IMG/VR virus record: IMGVR_UViG_3300032296_002452
Location: 1-64,000 of that record
Length of the DNA: 64,000 nt
Reading direction: 5' to 3' (one strand)
Source of the DNA: a virus
Shown: piece by piece, positions 20,196-45,277 of the stretch
How the letters are laid out: each line of letters opens with the position of its first letter
How positions within the stretch are numbered: the first letter of the stretch is position 1
Program-made: the position numbers and the translations under genes
Notes under the pieces: model-generated
The model's input: only the letters and a program-made list of their open reading frames with translations
Databases searched by the model: none
What the model was told of the DNA's origin: nothing

Positions 20196-21596
20196 TTAGT
20201 TCAAATTATTTTGCGGATTTTGTTCCGATTCCCTTTGTTTTCTTCTTTCCATAAGTTCTTTAATTCTATCACTCTTTTGTTGTTCCTTAACTTCTTGGAA
20301 TCCTAAGAATGTAACAGAACTATCTGTGTCGATTTCAATCAACTCGTTATTGAACTTACAGTTTTCGAAGATGATTCCATCGGGACCCAAACGGGATTTT
20401 GTGATTGCGATTGTTGCGAGTTTCATTTCTTTCTGTTGAAGGGTTTTAGCCACTGATATAATAACGTGTCCTACTTGAGCCTTCTTGATTGAACCACCCA
20501 TTTGGTCGGTAGTTACAACTTCAGAAGAGATGGAACTTCTATTTCCTTGTGTTGCGGTCCATCCTACAATATTTAACTCGTGACACATAGCCTCAAACCC
20601 TCTCATCACAGAACCTTCACTTTTCCACTCATCCCCGAGGTTCTTATCAGGAACAATACAATCAATGTAATCAATAACAACTAAGTCAATCTTGATTCCA
20701 TCGGCAATCATTTTTCTTACTTTATTTTTGATTTGGTTCATAGTCAAAGTGTCTGACGCTTCTTTCTGTAAAATCAATCTGTTTGGCATCTGACCTTCAA
20801 TTTCTTTTACTTTTTCCATAACATCTTCTTTGTGTGCCGCCAAATCATCAGGTGCAATACCTGTCCAAATCGTAAAGTGTTTTCTTTGTATAACCTTTGG
20901 GTTGTCTTCAAAAAATATCTGAAGTACATTGTAACCCACGTTAAACGCAGTGTTGGCGATTTTAGTTAGAATGGTAGTTTTACCCACACCTGTTGGTGCC
21001 AATATTACCCCAATTTCACCTTTAGCCAACCCACCTTTTAATAACTTATCAATACCTGAAATACCCATAGGTACAGGGTGTCTGAAATCATCGTTTAAGA
21101 CATCGTCTAAATTGTGAAACACGTCATTACTGTGGTTGTCTCTTTCACCAACTTGTAATGCAGTTCTTACCAACTCTTCTAACTTGTCATAATTTTCAAA
21201 CTCACCAGCGTCAATAATTTTTTGAGCTTTTGTCATTACTTTCTGTAGCTCTTGTTGTTTACAGAATTTTAATGCCTTGTCCTGTACAAAATTAGAACCT
21301 TCAAAAGGTGCGTTTCTAATTTGTTTTATTGTGTCCATCAGAATTCTCAACATCATTTCTTGTGGAAACTCACTTTTGGAAATTTGTTCCAAAGTTTCAA
21401 ATGATGGTGAGCACTGATATTTTTGGTAATATTCCTTAACCATCTGAAGGATGGTTTTGAAATACTTGTTTTCAAAGTGGGTTGGTTCTATAACATCAAT
21501 TATTGAGTGTGTAAAATCTTTATCTACTATGATTTGGTTTAATAATTGTAACTGAAATGATTGACCTAAATACTCAAAATTCTTGTGTGATGACAT
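20196..21596 (-). CDS. Replicative DNA helicase, DnaB/gp41-like
   Basis: This 466-residue protein is a hexameric 5'-3' replicative helicase of the DnaB/RecA-fold family. Residues 1-150 are the helical N-terminal domain. The motor domain has the Walker A motif APTGVGKTT (residues 200-208), Walker B in LVVIDYID (305-312) and a later conserved GGSIKKAQVGHVIISVAKT region with IAITKSRLGPDG, the arginine-finger region of DnaB proteins. The C-terminal 30 residues are charged. It lies in a replication cluster with an unknown protein, the FEN nuclease and UvsX. AGGGGAG on the minus strand (21605-21612), 8 bases before the ATG, is one of the few good Shine-Dalgarno sites. No primase is seen in the window. 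Confidence 0.9.
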   Translation of the reverse strand: MSSHKNFEYLGQSFQLQLLNQIIVDKDFTHSIIDVIEPTHFENKYFKTILQMVKEYYQKYQCSPSFETLEQISKSEFPQEMMLRILMDTIKQIRNAPFEGSNFVQDKALKFCKQQELQKVMTKAQKIIDAGEFENYDKLEELVRTALQVGERDNHSNDVFHNLDDVLNDDFRHPVPMGISGIDKLLKGGLAKGEIGVILAPTGVGKTTILTKIANTAFNVGYNVLQIFFEDNPKVIQRKHFTIWTGIAPDDLAAHKEDVMEKVKEIEGQMPNRLILQKEASDTLTMNQIKNKVRKMIADGIKIDLVVIDYIDCIVPDKNLGDEWKSEGSVMRGFEAMCHELNIVGWTATQGNRSSISSEVVTTDQMGGSIKKAQVGHVIISVAKTLQQKEMKLATIAITKSRLGPDGIIFENCKFNNELIEIDTDSSVTFLGFQEVKEQQKSDRIKELMERRKQRESEQNPQNNLN

Positions 21597-37798: not shown

Positions 37799-39607
37799 TT
37801 ATTGTGTAGTCGTATTTGGTTTTAATGGCATTGCTTTACCAATATTATTATTTTTTTCAATTTCACTTCTAATTATACCTTCTATATAACTCTTTAACTC
37901 AGGACTTATTGTCACTTGTTCGTTGTTTTTTCCATTTACACTAACAGAACCTGAAACGTCTATTTTAATGTCTTCAACTTTTACGTTTGTGTTTTGATTT
38001 ACATTTTGTGTTAATGTTTGGCTTTTAACATCAACACCAAACGATTTACTTAGTTCAACAAAACCTTTTGACACAACATCTGTAATTGTATTTCCTAAAC
38101 CAGCAAAAACGTTATCAGGCATAATGTCTTTTTTGAATTGTGTTGAGTAATCAAAACTCATAACTCTGTTGGATAGTGTTTCCAATCCTGTAACAAAATT
38201 ATCTCCAAATTTTGCAAATTTACCCAAAACATCTCCCAATCCTTGTTTACCTGATATAACATCATTTAGTGTTCCTATACTAGAAGATATTGCTTGGTCA
38301 ACATTTGACTGAAACTCTCTAGGTCTTACTAAGTTTGTAAACCCTTCTCTTGCGGTTCCTGTTGCACCACGAAGTATTTCTTGGGACGAGGAAACAATTC
38401 TAGTTCCCGCTAATGGTCCCGCAATTGTGGCTCTTATTGCCGCCACGTCGGCTTGTATTATTTTTTCGGTATCGAGTGCTGCTCTCGCGATTTCTTTGGG
38501 GGATAACTCAGCATTCGCATCCTGTATCGCCTTTATATCCGCACTGTTTATTTGGCTAACTAATTTTGTATCACCCTGGGTATTTAACTTAACAACAAAA
38601 CCACCTTTTGTTTTGTCGTACTGTGCTACGTTAGCAATAAATTGTTTTGTTTCTTCAGGAATATCACCACCCAATTTTAAATCTCTACCAACTATTTTTA
38701 ATCTTTCAGTCGCTTGACTCATTTTAACCAAGTCGTCATAAGCAATTCCTGTTTCGGTTTGAAGAACTCTCAAATCACGTTTTGCATTTGGGTATAATTC
38801 AAATGATTTGGTTTTTTCATTAAAGAATGTAAATCCTTCGGTTACTTTAGAAATTTGTTTTGTTAGTTCTTCAGTGTCTTCACTCGCCAAATACATTAAT
38901 CTAAATGGGTCAGCCAAGTCACCAGCAGCGACTCCCATTCTTTGAAAAGCAGCAACCATTTTAATTGCACCTTCAGGGTCAAATACTTTTTCGGCAAAGT
39001 CAAAAATGCTTTTCATGTTTATTCTTAAAGCCGCTGCTTGAGCTGCCATTCTACCTAATCCTTCAACACCATCCTCAAACCCAAACTTGTTCATATCGTC
39101 CAAACCTATACTAATGTTCTTCATTACGGCATCGACGTTAACTCCGACCGCTCTTGCGTTGTTAGCTGCGGCGTTTAATGCCTCGGGAAAATCGTTAATA
39201 GATTTACCGACTGTAATAAAATTTTCAGCCATTGTTCCAACGGTACCCGCCTGTAAACTATACGCTTGTGTTACCTCAGCAATTGCAACCATTTGTTGAC
39301 TTGTTAATAAAAGATTAACTTGTAAACCATCTAAAATTTCGTCTTGAGCCTTTTTTGCCTTGGCTAAAGCGTCTGCAAAATCTATACTTCCCGTTGATAT
39401 CGCCTGTAATTCAGGTACCGCTAATGATAAACTCTGTTGGATACCAGCAGCATATTGACGAGATTGTCCCATGGCACCAACAATAGAACTTGCTTGTACA
39501 TCTAACCCCTTGTACAATGCGTTCATACTTTCCGCCAATGTACTGAAAGCGTTTTTTATCTCTTCAGTAATTTTTTGAAAATTAAATGTACTGCCCGTAT
39601 CTGCCAT
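37799..39607 (-). CDS. Tail tape-measure-like protein
   Basis: This 602-residue protein is rich in Ala, Ile, Gln and Lys helices and has the look of a tape measure protein: helical repeats such as AAAFNASGK-like and GRMAAQAAALRINMKSIFDFAE, with a conserved phage tail tape-measure part (DFADALAKAKKAQDEI, SLQAGTVGTMAENFITVGKS and VGVNVDAVMKNISI, residues 70-170). The tape measure sets tail length, with about 1.5 angstrom per residue (a general rule), which suggests a tail near 90 nm. Its position between the tail assembly chaperone and baseplate genes is the canonical one. The C-terminal region (QTLTQNVNQNTNVKVEDIKI) is a beta-type linker. No transmembrane segment is evident. Confidence 0.8.
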   Translation of the reverse strand: MADTGSTFNFQKITEEIKNAFSTLAESMNALYKGLDVQASSIVGAMGQSRQYAAGIQQSLSLAVPELQAISTGSIDFADALAKAKKAQDEILDGLQVNLLLTSQQMVAIAEVTQAYSLQAGTVGTMAENFITVGKSINDFPEALNAAANNARAVGVNVDAVMKNISIGLDDMNKFGFEDGVEGLGRMAAQAAALRINMKSIFDFAEKVFDPEGAIKMVAAFQRMGVAAGDLADPFRLMYLASEDTEELTKQISKVTEGFTFFNEKTKSFELYPNAKRDLRVLQTETGIAYDDLVKMSQATERLKIVGRDLKLGGDIPEETKQFIANVAQYDKTKGGFVVKLNTQGDTKLVSQINSADIKAIQDANAELSPKEIARAALDTEKIIQADVAAIRATIAGPLAGTRIVSSSQEILRGATGTAREGFTNLVRPREFQSNVDQAISSSIGTLNDVISGKQGLGDVLGKFAKFGDNFVTGLETLSNRVMSFDYSTQFKKDIMPDNVFAGLGNTITDVVSKGFVELSKSFGVDVKSQTLTQNVNQNTNVKVEDIKIDVSGSVSVNGKNNEQVTISPELKSYIEGIIRSEIEKNNNIGKAMPLKPNTTTQ

Positions 39608-39629: not shown

Positions 39630-39821
39630 TTAATCATTTTTGGTAAATTCAGTTACTAATTTATCTATAAGATATCTTCTCATAAAACTAGGCATTGTTA
39701 AAAAATCACTATACGTGACTGTAGTATGTCTCGACAAAACGTAAAATTCGTCGATAAGTAAGCTTCTATAATCAGAAGAAAACCCGAAAAAATTCCACCC
39801 CGAAGTTGATAGAAACATCAA
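39630..39821 (-). CDS. Frameshift extension of the tail assembly chaperone
   Basis: This short frame encodes SSDYRSLLIDEFYVLSRHTT followed by a helix with MPSFMRRYLIDKLV. It overlaps the end of the chaperone gene by 50 bases and lies in the +1 frame relative to it. The region resembles the C-terminal extension of T4 gp26/tail-assembly-chaperone-type proteins that is reached by ribosomal frameshifting in many tailed phages. The in-frame ATG at 39821 would put extra residues MMFLSTSGWNFFGF in front, copied from the overlap in a different frame; I consider it less likely than frameshifting at TTTTTTC (39786-39792). It has no plausible promoter or ribosome site of its own. Confidence 0.6.
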   Translation of the reverse strand: MMFLSTSGWNFFGFSSDYRSLLIDEFYVLSRHTTVTYSDFLTMPSFMRRYLIDKLVTEFTKND

Positions 39822-40518
39822 CTTTTTTTCCTGACGGGGTATAAACTGTTTTAACCAAATCTAATCTTGGTTCATTTTTATCCAAAAACTCACGTATAAA
39901 TTTAGAATCTGAAATTGGCATTGATTGGATAAACTTAGATATTTCATTGGAATCTTTACTACCATTAACTTCAATCAATTGTTTTTGTAACGCCCATGTA
40001 ACTTTGGGTACTACCATGTTTGGTGGGTATGATTGTGCCATAACATCTAAATCTTTTGTATCCTTTAAACATAAAGGTTTCAATTTGACTTCAACCCCAC
40101 TTTTAGGTAACACAACTTTATAATGTCCGTTTTCATCAGGTTCTTGTTCAGGTCTTTTTATGTTTAACTCATCCAACAATAATGTTGTCGTGAATTTTTG
40201 TCCTGTATCGGGGTCGTTTACACTTATATTATATTCAGGACCAAAAGCAGTATTCCTTAAAAAAATTAATATTGCCTCAACATCTCCTTGCATTAACTCG
40301 TCCGGTTTTAAGTCTGGTTCATATAACTTAGTACGAATAAGTTGAGTAATCATATCATTAGTATTACTCATTAAAAGGTTTTCGTCAGCCGCGGTTAAGT
40401 ATCCGACTTTTACGCTTTTCTTTTTTGATTTATAAAATCTACCTCCAGTAGGTAGTGGAACCACATCGTGTGGTAAATTAAAATTTTCTTGCCCGAATTT
40501 AGTCAAATTTTCATCCAT
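39772..40518 (-). CDS. Tail assembly chaperone (gp26-like), short form
   Basis: This 248-residue protein lies between the tail tube and tape-measure genes, the classic place of the tail assembly chaperone. Its N-terminal part (DVVPLPTGGRFYKSKKKSVKV then GYLTAADENLLMS) matches the P-L-P-x-x-G-x-x-Y-x-x-x-K-x-x-x-V-x-x-x-T-a-x-x-E-x-x-l motif seen in T4 gp26/gp51-related baseplate hub assembly proteins. Its last codons contain GAA TTT TTT CGG, a slippery site, before a TGA stop, and a second frame continues in +1. It likely guides tube assembly around the tape measure and is not kept in the virion. A terminator hairpin ends 5 bases before its ATG, so translation start lacks a Shine-Dalgarno site. 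Confidence 0.75.
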   Translation of the reverse strand: MDENLTKFGQENFNLPHDVVPLPTGGRFYKSKKKSVKVGYLTAADENLLMSNTNDMITQLIRTKLYEPDLKPDELMQGDVEAILIFLRNTAFGPEYNISVNDPDTGQKFTTTLLLDELNIKRPEQEPDENGHYKVVLPKSGVEVKLKPLCLKDTKDLDVMAQSYPPNMVVPKVTWALQKQLIEVNGSKDSNEISKFIQSMPISDSKFIREFLDKNEPRLDLVKTVYTPSGKKVDVSINFGVEFFRVFF

Positions 40519-40522
40519 AAAA

Positions 40523-40548
40523 AAACACAGGGGTTAGTCCCTGTGTTT
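40523..40548 (-). terminator. Intrinsic terminator after the tail tube gene
   Basis: AAACACAGGG pairs with CCCTGTGTTT in a 10-bp stem with a 6-base loop, followed by a T run on the minus strand. It ends 4 bases before the ATG of the chaperone gene at 40518. It therefore also occupies the start region of the next gene. Confidence 0.8.
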
Positions 40549-40598: not shown

Positions 40599-41087
40599 TT
40601 AGTAAACTAATATACAACGGTCAGGTTGTAAAGTTACATCAAAATCAGCTAACTTGTCATCAGAATAACCTACGTTACCCCAACCAACTTTTGTAATTAT
40701 AGTTCCTTCAAGTATCCATTTTTCAACTACAACTCCTGTTGGGTCTAGCATTTCTAAATCAACGTTTTTCTTATAACCCGCAGCGTAACCCATACGACCT
40801 GTTACTGATTCTGCGTGTAAACGAACCCATTCCATAATTGCTTGTGTTGCGGATGGACCTATTGGGTCACGGAATTTAACGTTAATTGTACCCCAAGTAA
40901 ATCTACCCGACACAAATGTCGAAGTATTCAAAAACGGGATTTCAACTCCTTTTATGTCAATTGATGGTCTACCTGATGATTCAACAAACCATTCATTTAA
41001 ACCCAATGTACTATCAAATCTTAAAATAAATCGGTTCGAACGTTTTGGTTCGTATGGAACCGGCATTTTCATGAGTAAATCAGCCAT
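40599..41087 (-). CDS. Tail tube protein, gp19-like
   Basis: This 162-residue protein is the tail tube (T4 gp19-like). The characteristic N-terminus is PVPYEPKRSNRFILRFDSTLG, with FVESSGRPSIDIKGVEIPFLN, then a FRDPIGPSATQAIMEWVR segment and a beta-rich C-terminus ending in a short strand (FDVTLQPDRCILVY). Many copies stack into the tube through which DNA passes. Length is close to T4 gp19 (163). It is followed by a strong terminator and preceded by an AT-rich leader of about 120 bases with a TATTTAT-type motif, in keeping with high expression. Confidence 0.93.
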   Translation of the reverse strand: MADLLMKMPVPYEPKRSNRFILRFDSTLGLNEWFVESSGRPSIDIKGVEIPFLNTSTFVSGRFTWGTINVKFRDPIGPSATQAIMEWVRLHAESVTGRMGYAAGYKKNVDLEMLDPTGVVVEKWILEGTIITKVGWGNVGYSDDKLADFDVTLQPDRCILVY

Positions 41088-42094: not shown

Positions 42095-45000
42095 TTAGAT
42101 GTCTTCGAATGAAGCACCTGTTGGTGTAATCAAGAATTCTATATCAATAAATTCTAATGATTTAGTTGGTTTCAGATAGATTTTACCAACCAATTGGTTT
42201 CTGTCCAAATCAGCAGGGTCTGAAGAAACTGTCACACGGAAATCGTACAAACCTCTGTCTCTTCTAATCGAATCCAAAATTGGGTTTACTGAATCCAAAA
42301 AGTCCTGTCTAACTTTTTCGTCGTTTTGTTCAAACAACAATCTAGCTGCGACTGCTGATATTAATTTACGTGTTTGAAGTAATAGTCTTCTAACGTTAAT
42401 TCTATCAAGAGCGGATTCTGCAACTTGTAAGGTTTTATTACCCCAAATTACAGTTCCTACATCAGCAAAAGTTGCAATTGGGTTGATTCTACCTTCATAC
42501 AAAGTATCTCTTTGTGTTTGTGTTAGTTTTAATCTTGCCTTAATTGAGTTTACCAAACCTCTTGTATAACCTGCCGATGCAAACCATGGGAATGCAATAT
42601 TGTCAGTTAACGCCAAGTTTCTTGTTACTTCACCTGTTGCGGGAATATAAATTTGAGTGTTATTTACTGTATCCCTAACTAAAATCCAAGGATAATAAGT
42701 TGCGGTATAGTTTGAATCAATACCTGTTGTATTCAAATTGTCAACAGCTTCTGTTGGTAATATAATATCATCCACCGTAACTACAGGTAAATAAACATTA
42801 ACATCAGGGGTTGTACAAACATATAAAGAATCTGCTCTATCCCTTTCAACCATTTCAATAGCGTTTTCTACTAAATTACCGTTGTTTACGTAATCAATAC
42901 CTGGTGTAACTAATACATTTATGTTTACCGCTTCAGGATTGTTAAATGTTTGAATACCCAATAAGTAAGCGTAGTAGTCGGTGTTAGACCAGTTTGTTAC
43001 GTCTTGGTCTATTGTAATAATTTTAAACATACCTTCATTTGTCGCACTTGGGTATCTGTTTAAAGCATCACAAGCCCCGTTCGCCCACCCCGAACCACCA
43101 ATAATAAACCTGTCAGTATTTGTTCTTGTTTCTCTGTAAATGTCCCAACCGTCAAAACCTCCTTGAACCAAGAATGTGAATTTACGTGATTGGATTGTGT
43201 AATAAGGGTTATTTGGATTAGTTGGGTCTGTTTGGAACGACGCATCTCCTACATCAAACATAGAAGTACCTGAAGTAGAATAAATTGCCGGAATAGTAAC
43301 AACAGTCGCTCCCGAATCCATATGAAATCCTTTTGACAAATAGTTCCAAGGTAATGAGTCAACCTGACAAATGTTAGAAGGATTTAATTTACCTTTATAG
43401 GTATAATAGTCAGGGTCCCAACCATAAGCATAAGCCGTTGAGAAACCTAAATAAGTTTGTCTGATTTTGTCGCCAGAACTATATACTGCGTTGTCACCAC
43501 CTACCGCATTTCCAAAAGGAGGATTAGAGATAATTTCATTTGGGAAATTATATCTGGTTTTATAGATAGGAAATGGACTTATTGCACCTGTATACTTCCT
43601 AAAGTTGTAACCTTCAAAACCACATGGTAATGATGTTATTGGTGCGTTTTCGTTAAGTTCCAACATGATAAACTTAGACAATAAAGCGTATTCTCCGTTT
43701 GAACTACCTATTTTTTTACCTACATAACTATTAGACGCTGGGTCCATAGTACAGTTAGTAAATCTCTCTAAGAAAACAGGATTAGAATCTGTATCGGTAT
43801 AACTACGAACACCAATATCAAATGTGCCATTTGTAAACGAAATGTTTAATATTGAAATTTTTATTTCTACGTTAGCCGAATCACCATCAGATATTGTATG
43901 TACTTTAAATAATTTAGTTACTTTAGTACCTTCTAATTGTGATACAACCCAAGGAGATTCAGCACTTTGATATCTATCTAAATACCAACCTATCGATGAA
44001 GAAGAATTACTTCTCGCACTTGGTAGATTAACAAAACTACAATTTATACCTCTAATGTATCCTTGATTGTACGAATTATTTAAGAAGGTTGGGAACGTTT
44101 CTTCAACAAACATTGGGACATCTCTTCTAGGTTTACCGAAGTTTGTAACACCAAAAACCCTGTCTATGTAATTAGCCGCGGATAGAGATAAAGACGTTTC
44201 AAAACTAAAAGTAGTACTTTCAATAGTACCACCCGTAATCGCAAAAGTAGCAAAAGGATTTTTAGATATATCGCCATAGGTTGGTACGGAAGTACAATCT
44301 ACTGTGGCACCTGTACAAAAATATTCAGGACCATAGTTAGAACCAACATAAGTTGCAATACCTCTTGACCTTAAAGTTGCTACAACAACATCATCATAAT
44401 CACAATAAGAAACACCTGAATAAGTATATAATGTGCCCGATACTGAACCCGAGAAACTACCACTGCCTAAATCAGTTGCTCCTGTAACGTTAATGTAAAA
44501 CGAATATCCCGAATATGTACAATCACCTTCATTGTCAAACAAAGCGTAGTACCATTCATCATTTTGGTCATTTTCTAAATCGTTAAGTGATAAATCCACA
44601 TCGTTTACACCTAAATCATTTATTTCGGTTGTATAAACAAGTGACGTATAACCCGTATAGTCATTGGTTGCAATACTACCAAAATAATCAATCGAAGTTG
44701 ACGCCGCAGAAAACATACCGTCTATTGCTAAATCATATATATAATTTTGAATGTCACCACTTATTGTTGAAACACTTCCATTAAACTGTGTATATTCACC
44801 AAAATGATTTTGAATTGGGGTAGGTAATGCGGTTAAGAAATCAATTGAAGACGAGCTTCCTGTTGTACCTGAAAAATTAAAACTAAAAGGTGTTGTTAAG
44901 TTTGAGTCTATTCCAATAGTTGTTGGGTCAACATTGGCGATTGTTGTTAAAGACCAAGACGGACCAGCGTCGTATCCTGATAATCCAAGCACTCTTGTTA

Positions 45001-45277
45001 CAAAAAGTTGATTAGATTGTTGTAAATACGATTTAGCTATGTATGCTGCCTCGTATTTTGGTATTTGAGTGTTAACAAATTTTTCGGGTTGGGTTCCTCC
45101 AAAATACGACTGAAAATCATCATAGTTTGTGATGAAAATAGGTTCGAAAGCCGGACCTTTAATTGTTTCTCCAACAATACCGAGAGTTGTTACACCCACA
45201 CTTTGAGCTACGAAGCTTAAATCTCTTTCTGACGTATACACACCAGGTGATACGAATACTTTATTTGAACTTGCCAT
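42095..45277 (-). CDS. Tail sheath protein, gp18-like, enlarged
   Basis: This 1060-residue protein is the contractile sheath. The N-terminus (VFVSPGVYTSERDLSFVAQS, then GIVGETIKGPAFEPIFITNY) is the sheath start with the SPGVY-x-x-E-x-D motif. The C-terminal part holds the conserved core: QRDTLYEGRINPIATFADVG, the GNKTLQ and LDRINVRRLL segments, and the final RDRGLYDFRVTVSSDPADLD helix-strand unit that links neighbouring subunits. The middle (about residues 150-700) carries large, Tyr/Gly/Thr-rich insertions, so the protein is about 400 residues longer than T4 gp18 (659). It is followed by a strong terminator and preceded by a TATTTAT-type motif 36 bases before the ATG. Confidence 0.93.
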   Translation of the reverse strand: MASSNKVFVSPGVYTSERDLSFVAQSVGVTTLGIVGETIKGPAFEPIFITNYDDFQSYFGGTQPEKFVNTQIPKYEAAYIAKSYLQQSNQLFVTRVLGLSGYDAGPSWSLTTIANVDPTTIGIDSNLTTPFSFNFSGTTGSSSSIDFLTALPTPIQNHFGEYTQFNGSVSTISGDIQNYIYDLAIDGMFSAASTSIDYFGSIATNDYTGYTSLVYTTEINDLGVNDVDLSLNDLENDQNDEWYYALFDNEGDCTYSGYSFYINVTGATDLGSGSFSGSVSGTLYTYSGVSYCDYDDVVVATLRSRGIATYVGSNYGPEYFCTGATVDCTSVPTYGDISKNPFATFAITGGTIESTTFSFETSLSLSAANYIDRVFGVTNFGKPRRDVPMFVEETFPTFLNNSYNQGYIRGINCSFVNLPSARSNSSSSIGWYLDRYQSAESPWVVSQLEGTKVTKLFKVHTISDGDSANVEIKISILNISFTNGTFDIGVRSYTDTDSNPVFLERFTNCTMDPASNSYVGKKIGSSNGEYALLSKFIMLELNENAPITSLPCGFEGYNFRKYTGAISPFPIYKTRYNFPNEIISNPPFGNAVGGDNAVYSSGDKIRQTYLGFSTAYAYGWDPDYYTYKGKLNPSNICQVDSLPWNYLSKGFHMDSGATVVTIPAIYSTSGTSMFDVGDASFQTDPTNPNNPYYTIQSRKFTFLVQGGFDGWDIYRETRTNTDRFIIGGSGWANGACDALNRYPSATNEGMFKIITIDQDVTNWSNTDYYAYLLGIQTFNNPEAVNINVLVTPGIDYVNNGNLVENAIEMVERDRADSLYVCTTPDVNVYLPVVTVDDIILPTEAVDNLNTTGIDSNYTATYYPWILVRDTVNNTQIYIPATGEVTRNLALTDNIAFPWFASAGYTRGLVNSIKARLKLTQTQRDTLYEGRINPIATFADVGTVIWGNKTLQVAESALDRINVRRLLLQTRKLISAVAARLLFEQNDEKVRQDFLDSVNPILDSIRRDRGLYDFRVTVSSDPADLDRNQLVGKIYLKPTKSLEFIDIEFLITPTGASFEDI

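Follow-up and report, generated by a model that had tools for sequence, protein, structure and literature searches.

Tail chaperone locus and its second frame

The window, that is, the whole stretch of 64,000 nucleotides analysed here (positions 1 to 64,000 of the IMG/VR virus record IMGVR_UViG_3300032296_002452), has no DNA-level match among phage records. Its minus strand carries, in this order, the genes for tail sheath and tail tube, gene A, and a 602-aa ORF (Table 1). The initial annotation described gene A as lying between tube and tape measure. The tube gene is confirmed by a family match. The 602-aa ORF matches nothing in family and similarity searches and shows no similarity to the tape measure of Flavobacterium phage immuto, so that it can be called a tape measure by position only. 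The next large gene in the records of immuto and of Bacillus phage SP-15 is annotated as tape measure.

Table 1. Features of the tail chaperone locus (window coordinates).
Feature	Position	Strand	Basis
Tail sheath protein gene	42095..45277	-	phrog_23, 2.3e-59
Tail tube protein gene	40599..41087	-	phrog_4542, 2e-25
Gene A, putative short tail assembly chaperone (TAC-N-like), 248 aa	39772..40518	-	PF12322 'T4_baseplate', T4 gp26 family; phrog_150 2.5e-15; PF12322 1.2e-11
Upstream RNA hairpin	39797..39840	-	pairing, compensatory changes, z vs synonymous recodings, single-sequence fold
Predicted slip site UUU UUU C	39786..39792	-	P-site UUU 39789-39787 would re-pair with UUC one base on
Rare A-site codon CGG (Arg)	39784..39786	-	CGG/CGC enrichment in clade W; codon counts of window
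ORF B, +1 frame, C-terminal extension giving the predicted 295-aa long form (TAC-NC-like)	39630..39785	-	frame layout; B HMM match to T4 gp51
602-aa ORF in tape-measure position	37799..39607	-	position only

Gene A scores 45.2 bits against PF12322 (cut-off 24.5). Its predicted model (pLDDT 86.7) has fold matches in BFVD to SP-15, Vibrio VH7D, Aeromonas 25 gp26 and T4-like hub proteins; no match to A was found in the PDB by sequence or by fold. T4 gp26 and gp51 are both members of PF12322, and gp51 has an additional C-terminal stretch. An HMM of the B domain matches residues 208-248 of T4 gp51 (19.9 bits, E 6e-8, of moderate strength as the search comprised two sequences, gp26 and gp51) and does not match gp26. 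These matches favour the initial reading of A as a tail assembly chaperone, and place it in the T4 gp26/gp51 type, with B corresponding to the gp51 C-terminus, a relationship that had been overlooked. In cyanophages, B lies in the -1 frame and is annotated as 'gp51', a gene of 43-57 aa following gp26. Since B resembles the C-terminal extension of gp51, A appears to be the short chaperone and A+B the long one, for which T4 has a gene each. Family membership and the cyanophage annotation thus suggest that most of the family derives both forms from a single frameshifted gene, and T4 from two. The T4-like chaperone genes (gp26/gp51) have reportedly been identified as chaperones, apparently by Vladimirov, Gautam and Davidson (2022, Virology 566:9-15), as far as title and citations of that paper tell.

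Gene A ends in GAA TTT TTT CGG GTT TTC TTC TGA, and a second frame in +1 is open over its stop codon; both had been reported in the initial annotation and both are present on the minus strand. After the last A-frame Phe of the shift site, 47 codons follow in +1. Substitutions in B among relatives fall mostly at third codon positions (1043 : 765 : 2058 for positions one to three), a protein-type pattern by which B is under protein-level selection.

Conservation and sign of the second frame

The same layout, together with nearly every base around the site, is kept in seven viral contigs that are 75-89% identical to the window (L001-L007). The layout is also kept in fourteen relatives at 56-61% identity, retrieved by N-terminal patterns only, and at 24-28% identity in Mel-JY01, SP-15, LIS04 and LR756508, which are isolate or assembled genomes. 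Because it persists over this whole range, the A/B layout is, on comparative grounds, far beyond chance and not a sequencing indel. Among distant phages retrieved by protein search, a recognisable B domain stands in +1 in Microcystis phage Mel-JY01, Bacillus phage SP-15, Listeria phage LIS04 and an uncultured 484-kb phage, and likewise in immuto and in Streptococcus phage GXN1. The records of these phages either list B as a hypothetical gene of its own or omit it.

The survey set comprised 310 loci from four viral-contig scans and earlier loci; seven were cut by contig ends, leaving 303 assessable. The initial annotation had proposed comparing the junction in related phages. At all 303 loci B is conserved, overlaps A in another frame across the A stop codon, and has no generally usable start of its own; by B HMM it lies in +1 at 210 loci and in -1 at 93 (the HMM score is below 8 bits at five distant loci of clade S). 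Thus a large set of phages related to the window has +1, which the initial annotation had considered unusual, as its regular arrangement. After removal of near-copies, 145 +1 loci and 91 -1 loci were left. They were divided into clade W, which includes the window; clade M, with Mel-JY01 and immuto; clade S, with SP-15; and clade T, T4-like and in -1.

The -1 frame carries the same B domain in T4-like cyanophages, Vibrio, Aeromonas and other phages. A tree of 62 A proteins has a single deep split between +1 and -1, and -1 reappears later at L181/L212, L039 and L040, the last placed unsurely on account of its long branch. L181 and L212 belong to clade M, which otherwise has +1, but carry B in -1 at A_AAT_TTC; their sign switch is accompanied by neither a clear loss of the upstream hairpin nor a clear gain of a downstream one.

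Directly before the ATG of gene A (40519-40548, minus strand), between the tube and chaperone genes, stands a hairpin, ACACAGGGACTAACCCCTGTGT, with a T run after it, which resembles an intrinsic terminator. Such a hairpin precedes A at 29 of the 49 clade-W loci and at none of 72 in clade M; in SP-15 a terminator is annotated at the same place before the chaperone gene.

Proposed slip site, rare codon and flanking hairpins

The site reads TTT TTT_CGN at 49/49 non-redundant clade-W loci, a count partly biased toward the motif since one scan used EFFR[PV]FF as a pattern; loci retrieved by N-terminal patterns are free of such bias. TTT_Y is found at all 70 +1 loci of clade M and at about 22 of 26 in clade S. 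The clade-T site is T_TTT_TTC (84/89) or T_TTT_TTT (4). The Phe codons of the clade-W site are always TTT (98/98, vs 349/450 elsewhere in the same genes, p = 5e-10). The A-site codon is CGG or CGC at 39/49 clade-W loci, whereas over the rest of these genes 3 of 446 Arg codons are CGG or CGC (p = 7e-45; p = 8e-20 when restricted to CGN codons), although part of this bias may be coding, as the codon is also constrained by the +1 frame. In the minus-strand ORFs of the window CGG accounts for 4 of 685 Arg codons. The codon is called rare by phage codon usage, which may not mirror host tRNA supply. Both the +1 slip at TTT_C and the rare CGG in the A site, as proposed initially, are thus supported by comparison, and a P-site Phe-tRNA slip from UUU to UUC would explain the layout. 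Four clade-S loci (L312, L315, L317, L321) are without TTT_Y and perhaps shift to +1 at TTA/CTA TTY AAT CCC_A. A candidate phage-encoded slipping tRNA-Phe(gaa), predicted by ARAGORN at 21415-21506 on the plus strand, was rejected: it is antisense inside a 466-aa ORF, and Rfam gives no tRNA there at the gathering threshold.

Directly upstream of the site, clade W has a hairpin that the initial annotation had overlooked. Its base helix pairs 39840-39835 with 39802-39797 (98% of cells paired), and its inner helix pairs about 39824-39817 with 39810-39803, leaving a 5' bulge of about 10 nt that begins UCAGGA. The inner pair of the base helix varies between GC, GU and AU, and in the divergent L089 CCCC/GGGG is replaced in the helix by GUCC/GGAC, with amino acids changing too. 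The covariation score of the helix was never reached by row shuffles, and the single-sequence fold has -17.3 kcal/mol. The Gly codon GGG occurs in the hairpin arm at 48/49 loci, vs 60/569. The UCAGGA of the bulge (alignment columns 61-66, window 39834-39829) is nearly invariant, and its Gly codon is GGA at 49/49 loci, although GGT is the commoner Gly codon.

Folding energies were compared with those of synonymous recodings, which preserve codon usage; GC-rich codon choice could still add to the z values. In clade W (n = 49) the 45-nt window at -51..-6 has a mean z of -2.9 to -3.0; windows further upstream are mostly near zero, and no structure was detected downstream of the site (z -0.2 at +7..+52). 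Clade M has a z of -2.0 to -2.4 at the same place, a signal in folding energy only, since a consensus hairpin in a single register was sought and not found, and has some downstream signal as well (z -1.5). The upstream signal of clade S is weak (z about -0.8). Clade T shows the mirror image, with -0.1 upstream and -3.1 at +8..+53 downstream. Structure would therefore lie behind the ribosome in the +1 clades W and M, and in front of it in the -1 clade. By these comparisons the upstream hairpin is a selected RNA structure, with covariation in clade W, and the pattern over about 300 relatives suggests that an upstream hairpin goes with a forward skip and a front hairpin with a backward slip.

How the second frame may be reached

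The possible re-pairing of UUU to UUY, the enrichment of CGG/CGC and the upstream hairpin make it very likely that this gp26-type tail chaperone undergoes programmed +1 frameshifting. Gene A would be translated in the zero frame to give the short chaperone. In a fraction of ribosomes, with Phe-tRNA on the second UUU and the scarcely used CGG waiting in the A site, the tRNA would move one base forward from UUU to UUC; GGG would be read next, and the ribosome would go on through ORF B to the 295-aa long chaperone. The hairpin would re-form to the rear of the ribosome, with 7 bases between the end of its 3' arm and the P-site codon, and would probably favour the forward slip. The slip, its efficiency and the role of the hairpin are inferred. 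The short and long forms would correspond to lambda gpG and gpGT and to T4 gp26 and gp51; by analogy with lambda, A may bind the tape measure and B the tube protein. We hold with considerable confidence that synthesis of a short and a long chaperone by +1 slipping at UUU_CGG, probably favoured by the hairpin, is the best explanation of the locus.

The most serious rival accepts the +1 shift and questions the hairpin, which could be a by-product of GC-rich codons or have another role such as mRNA stability, the slip being driven by the rare codon and UUU_C alone. Rare codons alone are able to cause frameshifting (PMC5009743), and clade S shifts at UUU_CGU in spite of its weak upstream signal. 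We consider this unlikely, given the compensatory pairs in clade W, the confinement of the signal to -51..0 in clades W and M and its absence there from the -1 clade, and the stimulation of +1 by engineered upstream hairpins (PMC6321510).

It is far less probable that ORF B is a separate small gene with its own start or with coupling at the A stop. Many records do annotate B as its own gene ('gp51', 'baseplate hub assembly catalyst' or 'hypothetical'), an in-frame ATG stands upstream of the junction in the window and some relatives, and nt-1 has TAATG at the A stop. As listed (39821..39630), ORF B begins TTG ATG in the window, but in L002-L007 a stop stands directly behind the same ATG (ATG TAG), which means that initiation at the listed start is not conserved. 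An in-frame ATG for B is present at only 14/49 clade-W loci, and in-frame ATG, GTG and TTG are all absent from the overlap at 72/89 -1 loci and 30/70 +1 loci of clade M. An independent start would also give no account of the slip motif, the rare codon or the hairpin, and in T4 gp51 A and B form one chain.

A -2 shift as in phage Mu, in which the P-site Phe-tRNA would move two bases back in UUUUUU and add an extra Phe, leads to the same frame as +1, and the six-U run of the window allows perfect re-pairing. However, at about 17 non-redundant +1 loci the codon preceding the slip UUU is CAG, TTC, AAC, AGC, ACG or CCC; -2 re-pairing would mispair there and is thus not possible in all members, whereas +1 onto UUY fits, which points to the UUU before Y as the slipping codon. 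Rare A-site codons and upstream duplexes are moreover tied to +1 and not to backward shifts (PMC6321510), and we regard -2 as quite improbable. The canonical -1 arrangement at X_XXY_YYZ does not apply, B lying in +1 in the window and at 210 loci and clade W having no downstream structure. Transcriptional slippage on the T run (T6 in clade W, T7 in much of clade M), which would change the mRNA while the ribosome does not slip, is hardly credible, as loci with TTTC only (CAG TTT_CTT, AAC TTT_CTA, AGC TTT_CTT) keep the layout, and as the CGG/CGC enrichment and a hairpin on the translational side would be unexplained.

The proposed +1 slip at UUU_Y has partial counterparts elsewhere. T4-like -1 chaperones have the same A and B domains and, as in the window, a poly-U shift site near the A end; poly-T signals have been noted in T4-like TAC-N genes (cited in PMC12846349). 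The -1 chaperones of T4-like and other myophages combine U_UUU_UUC with a downstream hairpin, whereas the window has UUU_CGG, +1 and an upstream hairpin. In T4 itself, where gp51 carries a C-terminal extension like B, the two forms come from two paralogous, divergently oriented genes and not from one shifted gene. Lambda also makes a short and a long chaperone, gpG and gpGT, from a single gene flanked by tube and tape measure, the latter being assigned in the window by position only, but they arise by -1 at a different site, with another sign and stimulator (PMC5009743). A +1 shift in a tail gene is known from the chaperone of the haloarchaeal myovirus HSTV-2; the Listeria phages PSA, A118 and A500 also use +1, but at CCC and in genes for major tail or capsid proteins instead of chaperones (PMC5009743). 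The site UUU followed by A-site CGN with +1 recurs in influenza PA-X (UCC_UUU_CGU), which differs in its eukaryotic ribosomes, a stimulator that is not known and a very low efficiency (PMC5009743). Hairpins engineered upstream raise +1 shifting by 70S ribosomes, and both these and the prfB +1 site place a duplex just behind the E site next to a slow A site, as proposed for the window (PMC6321510). The prfB site uses a Shine-Dalgarno duplex and a stop codon, and the hairpins are man-made; in the window these roles would fall to a naturally occurring hairpin and to a sense codon that is rarely used.

We speculate more broadly, with about as much doubt as conviction, that the side of the hairpin sets the direction of the slip (+1 with a rear hairpin and UUU_Y, -1 with a front hairpin and U_UUU_UUC), that the sign has changed several times, and that the +1 hairpin replaces an internal Shine-Dalgarno duplex, perhaps as the hosts hardly use Shine-Dalgarno pairing. 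Of the 37 minus-strand ORFs in the window that reach 120 aa, only 3 have a Shine-Dalgarno-like motif, as in Bacteroidota-like translation; a host that cannot offer such a duplex would be consistent with this.

A frameshifted tail chaperone is of a known kind; what appears new is a +1 site that has a naturally occurring hairpin upstream, together with the mirrored -1 relatives. No +1 shift in gp26-type chaperones was found in the literature, within which the 2022 Virology paper was covered by title and citations only. A 2016 review described the G/GT frameshift as conserved 'except T4'. None of four annotated phage records examined closely (Mel-JY01, SP-15, LIS04 and immuto) marks the second frame in +1 as a frameshift. 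Phages with gp26-type chaperones would come under the G/GT scheme, and a single protein family would include shifts of either sign. They would also provide a natural and widespread upstream hairpin linked to +1, hitherto shown with engineered constructs, so that what sets the direction of a shift may be tested by hairpin swapping.
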